Positions 59,100-63,867 of a stretch of 64,000 bases of DNA are shown here, one piece after another. Made by a program: the position numbers and the translations under genes. The DNA lies in contig NZ_CANPWG010000046.1 of assembly GCF_947581915.1 (NCBI RefSeq), positions 1-64,000 of the forward strand. Reading direction: 5' to 3'. The stretch's first letter is position 1; the number at the start of each line of letters is the position of its first letter. This stretch comes from Candidatus Palauibacter scopulicola (GTDB lineage Bacteria > Gemmatimonadota > Gemmatimonadetes > Palauibacterales > Palauibacteraceae). The notes under the pieces were generated by a model. The model made no database searches. It was not told the DNA's origin and saw only the letters and a list, made by a program, of their open reading frames with translations.

Positions 59100-61967
59100 A
59101 TGAGACAATTCGTGTGCTCGCACCAAGCCCTCCCGGGCGCGGCCATCGCGGCGGCGCTCGCGGCGGCCGCCTGCGCCGAGTCGCCGCGGCAGCCGGTCGA
59201 CACCGAGGAGCCCTTCCGGGTCGTCACGACGATCGACGTGGGCGCCGCCCCGCACGGCATCCGGTTCAGCGCGGACGGAGACACGGCCTGGGTCGCCTTG
59301 AGCGGCGAAGGCGGGATCGCGGTCGTGGATCTCTCCGCGTCCGCCGTCGTGGCGCGCTGGGAAGCGGGGGACGCGCCGCTCGACCTCGTCCGCGTCGACG
59401 GCGGCTGGCTCGTGAGCCAGTTCCGGGATTCGACGCTCATCCGGCTCGACGAGGAGGGCCGGATCGTTCCCGGCGCCGTGTGGGACGTCGGGGCGGGTCC
59501 GTCGCTGTTCACGCCCGGGACCGTGCGCGGAGAGACCTGGATCACGACCGAGTTCTCCGACCGGCTGTGGACGGTGGACACCCGCGAGGGCACGCCGCGC
59601 GCGTTCCACGCCACCGGCGATCGCCCCTATCCCGCGGACGTCATGTGGGACGGGTCCCACGCCTTCGTCCCCAACCTCGACGCGGGATCCGTCTCCGTCA
59701 TCGACCTCCTGAACGGTGAGCTGGACGCCACGGTCGAGGCGTGTCCCGGCCCACCGGGCGGGGCACTCACGCCCGACCAGGTCACGTACGTCGTCGCCTG
59801 TGGCGGGTCGGACGAGGTGGCCTTTATCAACACCGCGTCCTTCGCGGTCACGGGCCGGGTGTCGGAGGGCCTCGGCCCCCGGCCGTTCTCCGTCGCGGTG
59901 CCCGCGGACGGCCGCCATGCGCTGGTCAACAACGCGGGCGGGAGCACCGTCTCCGTCATCGACCTCGAGTCCCGCGCCGTCGTGCAGCGGCTGGAGGTCG
60001 GCGAGCAGCCCATCGTCCTCCGGGTGCACCCGGACGGCGAGCGCGTGTTCGTGGCGAACGAGATCTCGGGCACGCTGGTCGAACTGGCGCCGACTGCGCG
60101 GTCGCCCGCGGCGGAATCATCGGCTGCCTCAGGAGAGGAGGCGGTGCTCAACGAGGTCGTCGTGCTGGGGATGATCCACTCGGGCCACGAGACCAGCGAG
60201 CTGTTCAGTCTGGAAGTCGTGAGCGATCTGGTGCGGGAGATCGATCCTGACTACTGGCTGACGGAGATCCCGCCCAACCGCTGGGACCGGGCATGGGCCG
60301 AGTTCGAAGCCACCGGGACGGTCGAGGAGCCGCGGGTCCGCCGCTTCCCCGAGTACATGGAGGGACTCTTCCCCCTCTCCCGCGAACTGGACTTCGAGGT
60401 CATCCCCACCGCCGGGTGGACCGAGCCGATGTCGGACTTCCGGGCCGCGTATCTCGATGCCTATTCGCGGGACCCGGATCGGGCCGCCGGCTGGGCGGAA
60501 TACCGGGCCGCCGCGGACGCTTCAGCCGAGGCGCTCGCCGCGGGCGCGGCGGACGACCCGCGCTGGATCCACACGGATGCCTACGACGAGGCCTACGACA
60601 TCCGCATGCGGACGTACGCCCGCCTGTTCGACGCGGATCTGGGCCCCGGAGGCTGGGACGCGATCAACGCCTCGCACTGGGCGTACATCGAGGCTGGGCT
60701 GGACCGGCATCGCGGCGAGGGCGTCCGCTTCCTCCTCACCTACGGCGCGGGACACAAGGGCCCGTTCCTCCGCGAACTCCGCCAGCGCGACGACATCGTC
60801 CTCCTGGACGTGGCGCCGTTCCTCGACCGGATCGAAGCGGCTGCCCCAGCGCGGCAGCGCGCCCCGCGTCGTCCCTCGACCGACCCGGTCTTCGATTCGT
60901 CGGAGCACAGGGATCTTTCCGAGCGGCTGCTATCCGTCGGAAGTGGCTTCTTCATGCCGGACGGCGGTCTCGTTGTGGTGGACCGCACCGAGATCCACAT
61001 GATCGACATGGCGTCCGGGGAGCACCGAGTGGTGGGGCGCGAGGGAGGGGGGCCGGAGGAATTCGGCTTCATAGGGCGGGCGGTTCGCGCGTCGGAGAGT
61101 GTCATCCTTAGCGACTTCCACAGGGGTCGTATCGTGTCGATTGGCCACGATGGCGATTTTGGCCACTCACAAAGCTACCTGGATGTTCCGCTCAACAGCC
61201 TTCAACCGCGGCTGGTAGCCCGTCATCCAGACGGCAGCACGGTCTTCCGCGACAGAGTCGACAACACGATGGTGCGGAAATCCGAAGGTCGATACTGGCA
61301 GCAAGCTCGGTATGTGGCGGTGGATGCCGCCGGCGGACTTCGAGTGGTCGCGGAGACACAAGGCAACGAACGGTACTCCGACACGAGACGTGACAGTCCC
61401 GTGGTGTTTGGGCACCGGACATTGGAGGCGGCGACCGCAGACCGTCTCGTCGTCGCCGAAACTGACCAGGGATCCATCTCGGTACTCGACTGGAGCGGCG
61501 TGCCGGTCGCCAGTATTCCCATGCCGGCCGGCGTCAGGCTGTCCGCAGACCAGGTGCGAAGGGGGCGAGACTCCGAGGCGTCGGAGTGGGAGGAGAGTAG
61601 GGGGCGGCTCATGGAGGCCGCGGTGGACGGCAGGTTCCCGTTCCCGCCGTCGGCCATAGAGGAGGGACTCCCCACTTGGCCTGACTGGCCGGCAAACGAA
61701 GTGGCGCCCCCGATCGATGCGATGCTGACGGACTTCGATTCGAGACTCTGGGTGAGAGATTATCGGCTTCCCGGCCAGGATGGCGTAACGTGGCGAGTGT
61801 GGGACATCGACCGGGAGCGGCTGCTGTTCACGGTGAGCATGGATGGTGAGGACCGGTTGCTCGACGCGCGAGGCGACGCAGTGTTGCTGCGCCGATTGGA
61901 TCCATTCGACGCTCACCAGGTTGTGGTGACTCCGCTTCGCCCCGAGCAGGCCAATGGAGGGACTTAG
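59100..61967 (+). CDS. Three-part lipoprotein: YVTN propeller, TraB-like middle domain, second propeller
   Basis: 955 residues from the ATG at 59100 (AGGGAG upstream), with signal and lipobox AAAACAE. Residues ~40-330 form YVTN/NHL-type repeats such as AVVDLSASAVVARWEAGDAP and VSVIDLESRAVVQRLEVGEQ. Residues ~355-590 resemble the DUF5694/TraB-like domain: VVVLGMIHSGHETSELF, PDYWLTEIPPNRWD and FLLTYGAGHKGPFLREL. From ~600 on, RDLSERLLSVGSGFFMPDGG and VVVDRTEIHMIDMASGEHRV start what is usually a separate six-bladed propeller protein; the DNA is noticeably less GC-rich after 61.08 kb. The fusion may be recent. Confidence 0.85.
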   Translation: MRQFVCSHQALPGAAIAAALAAAACAESPRQPVDTEEPFRVVTTIDVGAAPHGIRFSADGDTAWVALSGEGGIAVVDLSASAVVARWEAGDAPLDLVRVDGGWLVSQFRDSTLIRLDEEGRIVPGAVWDVGAGPSLFTPGTVRGETWITTEFSDRLWTVDTREGTPRAFHATGDRPYPADVMWDGSHAFVPNLDAGSVSVIDLLNGELDATVEACPGPPGGALTPDQVTYVVACGGSDEVAFINTASFAVTGRVSEGLGPRPFSVAVPADGRHALVNNAGGSTVSVIDLESRAVVQRLEVGEQPIVLRVHPDGERVFVANEISGTLVELAPTARSPAAESSAASGEEAVLNEVVVLGMIHSGHETSELFSLEVVSDLVREIDPDYWLTEIPPNRWDRAWAEFEATGTVEEPRVRRFPEYMEGLFPLSRELDFEVIPTAGWTEPMSDFRAAYLDAYSRDPDRAAGWAEYRAAADASAEALAAGAADDPRWIHTDAYDEAYDIRMRTYARLFDADLGPGGWDAINASHWAYIEAGLDRHRGEGVRFLLTYGAGHKGPFLRELRQRDDIVLLDVAPFLDRIEAAAPARQRAPRRPSTDPVFDSSEHRDLSERLLSVGSGFFMPDGGLVVVDRTEIHMIDMASGEHRVVGREGGGPEEFGFIGRAVRASESVILSDFHRGRIVSIGHDGDFGHSQSYLDVPLNSLQPRLVARHPDGSTVFRDRVDNTMVRKSEGRYWQQARYVAVDAAGGLRVVAETQGNERYSDTRRDSPVVFGHRTLEAATADRLVVAETDQGSISVLDWSGVPVASIPMPAGVRLSADQVRRGRDSEASEWEESRGRLMEAAVDGRFPFPPSAIEEGLPTWPDWPANEVAPPIDAMLTDFDSRLWVRDYRLPGQDGVTWRVWDIDRERLLFTVSMDGEDRLLDARGDAVLLRRLDPFDAHQVVVTPLRPEQANGGT

Positions 61968-61974
61968 CGGGCTG

Positions 61975-63867
61975 CTAGTCTCCGAGCAGGTCGAGGATCG
62001 CGGACTTCGAGATCAGTTCCGAGAAGACGTGCGGCTCCTGGTCCGGCCGGTAGAGCACGTAGAAGGGGATGCCGTAGCGGCCGAAGTCGGCCAGGTAGCG
62101 GCTGATCGAATCGTCGCGCCGCGTCCAGTCGGCCCGCATGGCGATGACGTCGTATTGCTCGAACGCCCCGGCCACTTCCTCCGTCTCCAGGAAGAGCGTC
62201 TCGTTGATCTTGCAGGTGAAACACCAGTCCGCCGTCACGTCGACGAACACGTAGGTGCCCTCGGCCGCGAGCCCCTCGGCCCGCTCGCGGTCGAAAGGCT
62301 GCCAGGCGATCAGCCGGTCCTCCGGCGCGACGCCGATCGTCGAGGGCCCCGCTTCGGACCGCCCCGCGGCCACGGTGGAGACGGCCACGACCGTCAGCGC
62401 CGCCGCGGCGACCCCGGCGAGGCGGCGCGGCGCCCGCCCCCGCTGCGCCCGGCTGGCGAGCCAGATCGCGAGGGCCACGGCCAGCAGCCCAATCTCGAAG
62501 AAGGCCACGCGCGGCGCCGACACCAGGCCCGACATGACGAAAAGGAGCCACACGAGCGTCGCCGCGAGCAGGAACCCCATCACCACGCGGAAGGTCGCCA
62601 TCCACGCGCCCGGCCGCGGCAGCACGCGCCCCGCCGCCGGGAACGCCGCCAGGAGCAGGTACGGAGAGGCCATCCCGGTGCCGATCGCGCCGAACATGGC
62701 GGCCGTCGTAACCGAGTCCTGCGTGAGCGCGAAGCCGAGCGCGGTCCCCAGGAAGGGGGCGGAGCAGGGCGTCGCCATCAGCGTGGCGAAGAAGCCGGTC
62801 GCCAGGTGCCCCGCGAGCCCCTCGGACGGACCCGACGAGCCCACCTTCGCCAGTGTCCCCGGGAGATGGATCTCGAACAGTCCCCACATGTTGAGCGTGA
62901 AGAGCAGGATCACGACCGCGAGCGCCCCAACGAACACCGGCTCCTGGAACTGGATCCCCCAGCCCACCGCGACCCCGGCCGCGCGCGCCCCGATCGCGGC
63001 CCCCGCCAGCAGCAGGAAGGAGAGGACGATCCCCGCCGCCGTGGCGAGGCTTCCCGTCGTGAGCGCGCGCCTGCCCCCCTCCGCGCTCTTCATCAGCCCG
63101 AACACCTTGAGCGACAGCACGGGCAGCACGCACGGCATCGCGTTCAGGATCAGCCCGCCCAGGAAGCCCAGGAGCACGAACCACAGGAAGCCTCGTCCCG
63201 CGCCCCCGATCTGCGAGGCGCCGCCGCCCGTCCCGGCTTCCGCCGCAGCGAAGAACTCGGGGTTCGCGACTTCTCCTCCCGCGTCGATCGTCAGTCCCAC
63301 CGTGGCCGGCGTAGTCACCGGCGCGAGGCACATTTTGTCGTCGCACGCCTGGTAGGTGACGTTCGTTCGGATGGGGTACGTGCCGGTCGCCGCTCCCGCC
63401 GGCGTCGGCAGCACGGCCCGGATGAAGATCTCGCCCTCGTACACGGAGATGGCGGTGGGCGCAAACTCGAAGCGCTTCATCTCGCCCGGGGGATAGCGAG
63501 GCGTCTCCGCCGCTGGCCAGTCCGGCGGCGCCTCGATCTCGATCTCCGTCGCGATCAGGTAGTCGTAGGTCGGCTCGTAGCTGTTCGTGTGCCAGCCGTC
63601 CTCGATGGTGAGGCGCACCGCGAGGTCGGCGGCCTCGCCGGCGAGGTAGGCCGTGCGGTCGAGGGCGACGGCGATGTCTCCCTTCTCGAGATCGAACGCC
63701 CCCTGCCGGGGAAGCTGCGCCGCGCCCGGGTCCGGGAGGAGTGATCCCGCGAAGGCGGCGATCAGCGCCGCGCGCGCCGGCCACGAGCGCCGCGCTTCGC
63801 CGTGTCCGTCTCCGGCAGTCCGTGGCAAAAGCCCTGCCGTTGTCCTGCCTCTCGAACCGACCGTCAT
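61975..63867 (-). CDS. DsbD-like thiol:disulfide interchange protein
   Basis: 630 residues from the ATG at 63867. A signal peptide leads into an N-terminal periplasmic domain with the Cys pair YQACDDKMC. Eight or so transmembrane helices follow, with NAMPCVLPVLSLKVFGL and ATPCSAPFLG carrying the membrane Cys pair. The C-terminal thioredoxin-like domain has DWCFTCK. This is the three-part DsbD/ScsB arrangement, which moves electrons from cytoplasmic thioredoxin to periplasmic disulfide reductases. The stop is 7 bp from the convergent fusion gene. Confidence 0.94.
   Translation of the reverse strand: MTVGSRGRTTAGLLPRTAGDGHGEARRSWPARAALIAAFAGSLLPDPGAAQLPRQGAFDLEKGDIAVALDRTAYLAGEAADLAVRLTIEDGWHTNSYEPTYDYLIATEIEIEAPPDWPAAETPRYPPGEMKRFEFAPTAISVYEGEIFIRAVLPTPAGAATGTYPIRTNVTYQACDDKMCLAPVTTPATVGLTIDAGGEVANPEFFAAAEAGTGGGASQIGGAGRGFLWFVLLGFLGGLILNAMPCVLPVLSLKVFGLMKSAEGGRRALTTGSLATAAGIVLSFLLLAGAAIGARAAGVAVGWGIQFQEPVFVGALAVVILLFTLNMWGLFEIHLPGTLAKVGSSGPSEGLAGHLATGFFATLMATPCSAPFLGTALGFALTQDSVTTAAMFGAIGTGMASPYLLLAAFPAAGRVLPRPGAWMATFRVVMGFLLAATLVWLLFVMSGLVSAPRVAFFEIGLLAVALAIWLASRAQRGRAPRRLAGVAAAALTVVAVSTVAAGRSEAGPSTIGVAPEDRLIAWQPFDRERAEGLAAEGTYVFVDVTADWCFTCKINETLFLETEEVAGAFEQYDVIAMRADWTRRDDSISRYLADFGRYGIPFYVLYRPDQEPHVFSELISKSAILDLLGD

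Follow-up and report, generated by a model that had tools for sequence, protein, structure and literature searches.

The window, i.e., the whole stretch of 64,000 nucleotides of Candidatus Palauibacter scopulicola DNA analyzed here, carries a gene (P0001) whose frame is open over 955 codons and closes on a stop codon at 61965-61967. The product is lipoprotein-like and consists, in this order, of a YncE-like propeller (PROP1), a TIKI/TraB-like domain, and a six-bladed propeller (PROP2) (Table 1). The start at position 59100 fits, since in another genome of the genus (G023) an in-frame stop lies just 8 codons upstream of the matching residue. The gene converges on a neighbor which we take to be DsbD.

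Table 1. Features of the fused gene and its surroundings (window positions), and peptide ORFs found beside the DsbA-like+propeller gene (positions in loci L007 and L044).
Feature	Position	Strand	Basis
Three-domain fusion gene P0001, 955 aa	59100..61967	+	Open frame; homologs G026 (91%) and G023 (88%) over full length
Putative lipoprotein-type signal peptide, Cys at residue 25, LAAAAC	59100..59171	+	Reading of the sequence
PROP1, YncE-like beta-propeller, residues 38-335	59211..60104	+	Pfam YNCE (PF21783), 31.5 bits vs cut-off 27.1, scanned alone
TIKI/TraB-like domain, residues 346-577, ending in FLDR	60135..60830	+	AF2 model and structure matches
Junction, 6 bp between end of TraB homology and start of propeller homology	60831..60836	+	blastn vs own contig C13
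Linker derived from DsbA-propeller gene; GC-rich microhomology GCGGCTGCCCC	60837..60866	+	Sequence comparison
PROP2, captured six-bladed propeller (probable capture), residues 590-955	60867..61964	+	93% DNA identity to G025 DsbA-propeller gene, 90% to C13; NHL profile match
3' junction TTAG-CGGGCTG-CTAG: propeller stop, 7 bp, convergent DsbD stop	61964..61978	.	Junction comparison
Convergent DsbD-like gene, usual neighbor in the genus	61975..63867	-	ORF list and synteny
Small Cys-rich peptide ORF, putatively secreted	L007:8914-9139		Directly upstream of DsbA-like+propeller gene
Small Cys-rich peptide ORF, putatively secreted	L044:7800-8036		Directly upstream of DsbA-like+propeller gene

The base composition changes along the gene. 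A preliminary description, made from the letters of the window, had reported a GC-rich first two-thirds and a poorer last third, and our measurements agree: GC is 0.728 in PROP1, 0.695 in the TraB-like domain, and 0.642 in PROP2, and GC3 is 0.933, 0.897, and 0.745, respectively. Along the gene, GC3 stays at 0.85-0.97 over codons 1-600 and drops to 0.67-0.82 over codons 601-900, which places the composition step at about residue 580-600. In the window, whose overall GC is 0.692, a value as low as that of PROP2 is reached in 2.9% of 1,259 segments of 1,095 bp. Across the fused genomes, the GC3 of the host part is 0.87-0.93 and that of PROP2 0.72-0.75.

The naming of the domains as propeller, TraB-like, and propeller, also proposed in the preliminary description, was borne out by profiles and structures. 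Scanned by itself, PROP1 scores above the Pfam YNCE cut-off; unlike other YncE-like propellers, it has a TraB-like domain attached in most of 39 loci. The TraB-like domain of P0001 returned no family in the Pfam scan. Pfam DUF5694 (PF18950) matched 2 of 23 family members weakly (best E 0.00097), without reaching its gathering score, and did not match the P0001 domain itself; a sequence search for a solved relative of this domain found none (best E 0.86). Its AF2 model has a pLDDT of 93, and EreC (VIA Z 8.6), ChaN (7.9), RRSP (7.8), HopBA1 (7.0), and BcR135 (7.0) are all among its top 13 structural rows (Z 9.2 to 6.9), the best row being a Tetrahymena complex IV subunit (Z 9.2) that does not belong to TIKI/TraB/Ere/ChaN. 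The domain shares an alpha/beta core with EreC, ChaN, BcR135, and HopBA1 at Z values (7-9) that barely exceed the background stated for the tool, and a Foldseek search by itself returned nothing at E <= 0.001 (best E 0.018, BcR135). In the alignment of 23 TraB-like sequences, H16, E45, and H208 are invariant, and the series GxxH ... E ... GxxH, in which we take GxxH to be the superfamily motif, is invariant or nearly so. Since the Z values lie near background and the Foldseek result is weak, our superfamily call leans on the coherence of the match list and on these three invariant residues. The family differs from the known superfamily in that no Pfam member scores above its cut-off and in that the P0001 domain is flanked by two propellers.

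In the passages of PMC6254334 that bear on this superfamily, RRSP, BcR135, ChaN, HopBA1, and the Ere family are named as members, a catalytic role is given to the conserved His/Glu residues, and the attachment of extra domains is said to be frequent in TIKI proteases. Of the 2His/2Glu set mutated in RRSP, the first Glu position, by our reading of the numbering in PMC6254334, is Met, Val, or Ala in our alignment, the residues being matched by sequence. Judging from its family, the TraB-like domain may be an active hydrolase or peptidase of the cell envelope.

For PROP2, Pfam gave PQQ_2 below its cut-off, and an AF2 model built from 2 sequences had a pLDDT of 37.6. A profile of 16 PROP2 relatives (A3) matches NHL six-bladed propeller structures (best E 1.2e-14), among them the NHL structures of TRIM2 and TRIM71 (E 1e-13 to 1e-14), a kinship at fold level only. 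The preliminary description had also likened the start of PROP2 to the mature N-terminus of independent propeller lipoproteins. This comparison stands in part: freestanding relatives do exist, at about 50% identity and in another genus, but the nearest source is a propeller lying behind a DsbA-like domain.

The two parts of the gene do not have the same distribution. In a scan of named genomes, which yielded 39 loci, 33 of the 36 that could be scored end at the TraB domain or at most 3 residues past it (L103, L109, and L116 could not be scored), from which we conclude that PROP1 and TraB form the old gene. The other three run on, into PROP2 in L078 and L079 and into an amidohydrolase in L098. 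In this last locus (L098:6997-10104), the amidohydrolase continues the reading frame from the C-terminal end of the TraB-like domain, whereas 13 other loci have it as a gene of its own, a short distance downstream. The existence of this second fusion indicates that the TraB-like C-terminal end tolerates additions.

We searched 17 genomes of the genus, 14 of which carry the host gene: four are fused (our own, G000, and G026, G023, and G019, the G019 copy being divided between two contigs), nine are unfused, and one (G020) shows both forms on short contigs. In the remaining three (G022, G028, G034), the host gene was not found. The order at the host locus is conserved, i.e., GGT, TolB-like, host gene, DsbD, and PROP2 lies between TraB and DsbD in fused genomes only. 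Among the relatives that bear names, Ca. P. rhopaloidicola has the fused form (91%); the others are Ca. P. denitrificans and Ca. P. poriticola. For Palauibacterales as a whole, PMC10469786 gives sponges, corals, and marine sediments as sources. The same architecture is present in relatives, where the preliminary description had advised looking for it. That description had also held that many full-length homologs would speak against a chimera. We found three complete three-domain copies (our own included) and two more that are truncated where their contigs end, and all five belong to a single genus. This weighs weakly in that direction; 18 other genomes of the family, outside the genus, gave no full-length match. 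The two G020 contigs (L040 and L041) are fused and unfused versions of one locus, the fused one being cut by its contig end and nearly identical to G023. Their record names give depths of 57.1 and 56.7; the bin may be mixed, one of the two contigs then being contamination.

The closest relatives of PROP2 are found in another gene, coding for a DsbA-like domain followed by a propeller. Contig C13 of our own genome carries such a gene, and G025 has a complete version of it (602 aa) at the same syntenic site. Close DsbA-like domains occur in only 2 of the 17 genus genomes (G000 and G025), and this donor gene was not seen among them in G026, G019, or G023. More widely, 27 of 395 genomes sampled from the phylum matched at E < 1e-30, and whole-length DsbA-propeller matches (51-61% identity) come from 4 genomes that belong to a different genus of the class. 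The N-terminal half of the donor passes the Pfam cut-offs of both DsbA and Thioredoxin_4, with a CPVC motif read from the sequence; it differs from those families in being joined to a propeller and in lying downstream of a gene for a small Cys-rich peptide. The DsbA-like half was left behind and is not part of P0001. The GC3 of the donor DsbA domain (0.68-0.69) makes it likely that the donor came by horizontal transfer from a genome of lower GC.

In 7 of 11 loci examined (L007, L044, L054, L122, L123, L133, and L135), a small ORF that opens with a signal-like segment and is Cys-rich toward its end lies directly upstream of the DsbA-propeller gene. Three further loci (L121, L129, and L055, the last two looking near-identical) have a Cys-rich tail without a clear start, and in L119 no Cys-rich ORF was found upstream of the gene. 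No Pfam match was obtained for the two peptides scanned. Between G000 and G025, the dN/dS of the peptide is 0.35 over the first 33 residues and 1.34 over the rest, its fast-varying mature part, the latter being a rough value from 41 codons. Literature searches, covering titles and the beginnings of abstracts, turned up no paper on P0001 or the peptide-DsbA-propeller cassette, although one may exist all the same.

The point where the two genes meet could be placed precisely. Compared with C13 by blastn, TraB homology stops at 60830 and propeller homology starts at 60837. In every fused clade, the TraB tail is native up to the junction and propeller homology begins within 6 bp. The fused tails read RIEAAAPxR (G000, G019), RLAAAPTR (G026), or RIAAPTR (G023 and the fused contig of G020), and the unfused ones RLAAGR, RVAAAR, or similar; donor linker and recipient tail have GC-rich words in common, e.g., GCCGC and GCCCC. 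On the 3' side, the TTAG of the propeller is connected to the CTAG of DsbD through CGGGCTG (G000, G019) or directly (G026), and in G023 a dispersed repeat follows the propeller stop from the very next base. This repeat is present in 13 of the 17 genus genomes (8-40 matches each), has inverted ends, and often stands right after TAG (L039:1-137, L136-L175). An IS5-like/MITE repeat would be expected to have terminal inverted repeats and a target of the YTAR type; among 28 copies examined, 6 have inverted ends and 14 are preceded by YTAG (21 by CTAG, TTAG, or CTGG). In the unfused G025, a 38-bp piece of the repeat lies at the DsbD stop. The 7 bp CGGGCTG have the letters of a dispersed-repeat end and could derive from such a repeat, and a mobile repeat at the DsbD stop may have helped the 3' side of the capture.

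The preliminary description had seen the gene as a likely chimera, a view supported by domains that have separate relatives elsewhere in the genus and by a junction that can be placed within 6 bp. We consider it probable that it is a young domain-capture chimera, in which PROP2 was copied from a DsbA-like+propeller gene to the host stop, either repeatedly or with exchange at the junction. In a PROP1+TraB tree of 13 rows (the distant G029 and G033 being excluded), G000, G019, and G026 form one supported clade (96/97), and G023 and G020a group with the unfused G030-G032. When all five fused rows were forced together, the AU test rejected the topology (p-AU 0.00197), for a group defined by architecture and not by tree, the single-gene trees having been viewed beforehand. 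Two or more captures thus seem to have taken place in Ca. Palauibacter, or else a single one followed by exchange at the very junction; indeed, recombination exactly at that point could mimic two captures. One may ask instead whether a single fusion spread among Palauibacter species by homologous recombination. The fusion position is the same in all fused genes and, in the same fused pairs, the dS of PROP2 (0.07-0.10) is below that of TraB (0.15-0.36), as such a spread would have it. However, besides the AU result, the TraB tail of G023 keeps the form typical of its own clade up to a few bases from its end (VGPFLDRI, compare the unfused G032), and its 5' and 3' junctions are both unlike those of G000 and G019, so that we regard a single fusion as doubtful.

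The preliminary description had left two origins open, deletion or transfer, of which transfer is retained, as a copy of the propeller domain. A deletion would require a TraB gene directly upstream of the peptide-DsbA-propeller genes and the loss of about 1.08 kb, and our own contig C13 shows exactly this order: a TraB tail that ends in a stop of its own is separated by 1,077 bp from the propeller that follows. This simple model was prompted by the C13 blastn result and dropped on synteny comparison, since host and donor genes occupy separate syntenic loci on opposite strands and C13 only imitates a precursor. Indeed, in G025, the sole unfused genome seen with both parents, these lie 39 kb apart, the TraB gene adjoins DsbD, and no TraB piece precedes the DsbA-propeller gene; G021, G027, and the fused G026 have no DsbA-propeller gene at that site. 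The TraB piece of C13 differs from the window gene at 2 of 180 bp upstream and at 6 of 61 at its end, against 5-21 differences in 180 bp from 11 other rows, a near-identity to the G000 gene which makes the piece younger than the fusion common to G000, G019, and G026. A deletion is, in our estimation, clearly improbable. An artifact of assembly or binning is more improbable by far: the genomes are MAGs and several contigs end within or beside PROP2 (the PROP2 copies of G019, G020, and C13 are cut by contig ends), but in G026 the fusion lies on a contig of 204,673 bp (labelled cov 436), with differing sequence (91%) and the same flanks, and G023 and G019 are further assemblies with it.

As for C13 itself, the 5'-truncated TraB-like tail (L007:8450-8746) keeps an unfused stop and lies beside the peptide-DsbA-propeller genes. 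Its sequence suggests that the tail of the G000 lineage was still unfused not long ago and that recombination would have brought in the fused one. We also considered whether C13 and C46, both of G000, simply meet inside PROP2, and rejected this, C46 ending with 49 bp of an IS-like repeat before the 3' flank of the donor. The IS-like end that closes C46 (L062:17630-17678) sits where the donor DsbA-propeller locus ends on its 3' side, and its core occurs 7 times in G000.

The domains of the fused gene have evolved unequally. The dN/dS of PROP2 is about 0.9, against about 0.13 for the host part, and its dS is also lower. Among the pairs listed, the ratio is 0.08-0.20 for PROP1, 0-0.26 for TraB, and 0.58-1.26 for PROP2, with a dN of 0-0.04 for TraB and 0.05-0.095 for PROP2 in the fused-gene pairs; synonymous and nonsynonymous counts differ between TraB and PROP2 (Fisher p 5e-10 to 9e-5, 6 pairs), in pairs that are mutually non-independent, so that these ratios are descriptive and no proof of positive selection. 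Over 6 copies, an amino-acid change is seen in 104 of 369 PROP2 columns and a silent-only change in 41 more codons. A mosaic PROP2 as the sign of special recombination was dropped, the four-gamete conflict being as high elsewhere in the gene (479 of 903 site pairs in 5 PROP2 copies, 555 of 1,035 in PROP1, 88 of 171 in TraB).

A ratio near 1 could mean that PROP2 is a tolerated passenger, functionless in the fusion. We hold this to be unlikely: the complete copies are in frame without internal stop and their indels come in threes only (the contig-end fragment of G020 contains a TAA), and changes cluster in two stretches (pN/pS 2.2 in codons 61-133, 1.4 in codons 236-278), the C-terminal quarter being at 0.39. 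Moreover, the ratio was already high in the DsbA context, where two DsbA-bound copies give 0.83 for PROP2, 0.28 for DsbA, and 0.12 for the flanking MATE-type gene. By the same comparison, relaxed selection after fusion is not favored.

In the capture that we favor, the starting point would have been an old gene for a secreted protein, with a YncE-like propeller and a hydrolase domain of TIKI/TraB-like type. At its stop codon, the propeller half of a DsbA-like+propeller gene would then have been inserted as a copy, the added domain supplying (or sharing) the new stop. The 5' crossover may have used GC-rich microhomology between TraB tail and donor linker, and the 3' side may have fallen at a TAG site also used by the mobile repeats of the genus. 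PROP2 would thereby have become an extra binding domain on a secreted TIKI/TraB-like hydrolase. From the families and the pattern of change, we tentatively suggest, as a possibility short of even chances, that PROP2 is a fast-changing binding module, formerly paired with the small Cys-rich secreted peptide, which would give an active TraB-like hydrolase a new target or partner. More speculative still is an undescribed envelope system of Gemmatimonadota, in which a diversifying propeller would recognize a small secreted Cys-rich peptide with a fast-changing mature part, beside a membrane-anchored DsbA-like oxidoreductase, and would have been copied repeatedly onto the end of a TIKI/TraB-type hydrolase, which would thereby be aimed at a variable peptide or partner.

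Propeller-enzyme fusions are ordinary in kind; what is new is this architecture and its apparently repeated, visible capture. As an example of a bacterial gene that has recently taken up a domain, the locus is a clear one: host, donor, unfused sister locus, donor-less sister locus, and junctions all lie within one genus, and the dN/dS at which the captured domain still evolves exceeds that of the host about sevenfold. The locus is a natural system for asking why one domain joins repeatedly at one place, and it points to an uncharacterized peptide/oxidoreductase/propeller cassette in sponge-associated and other Gemmatimonadota.
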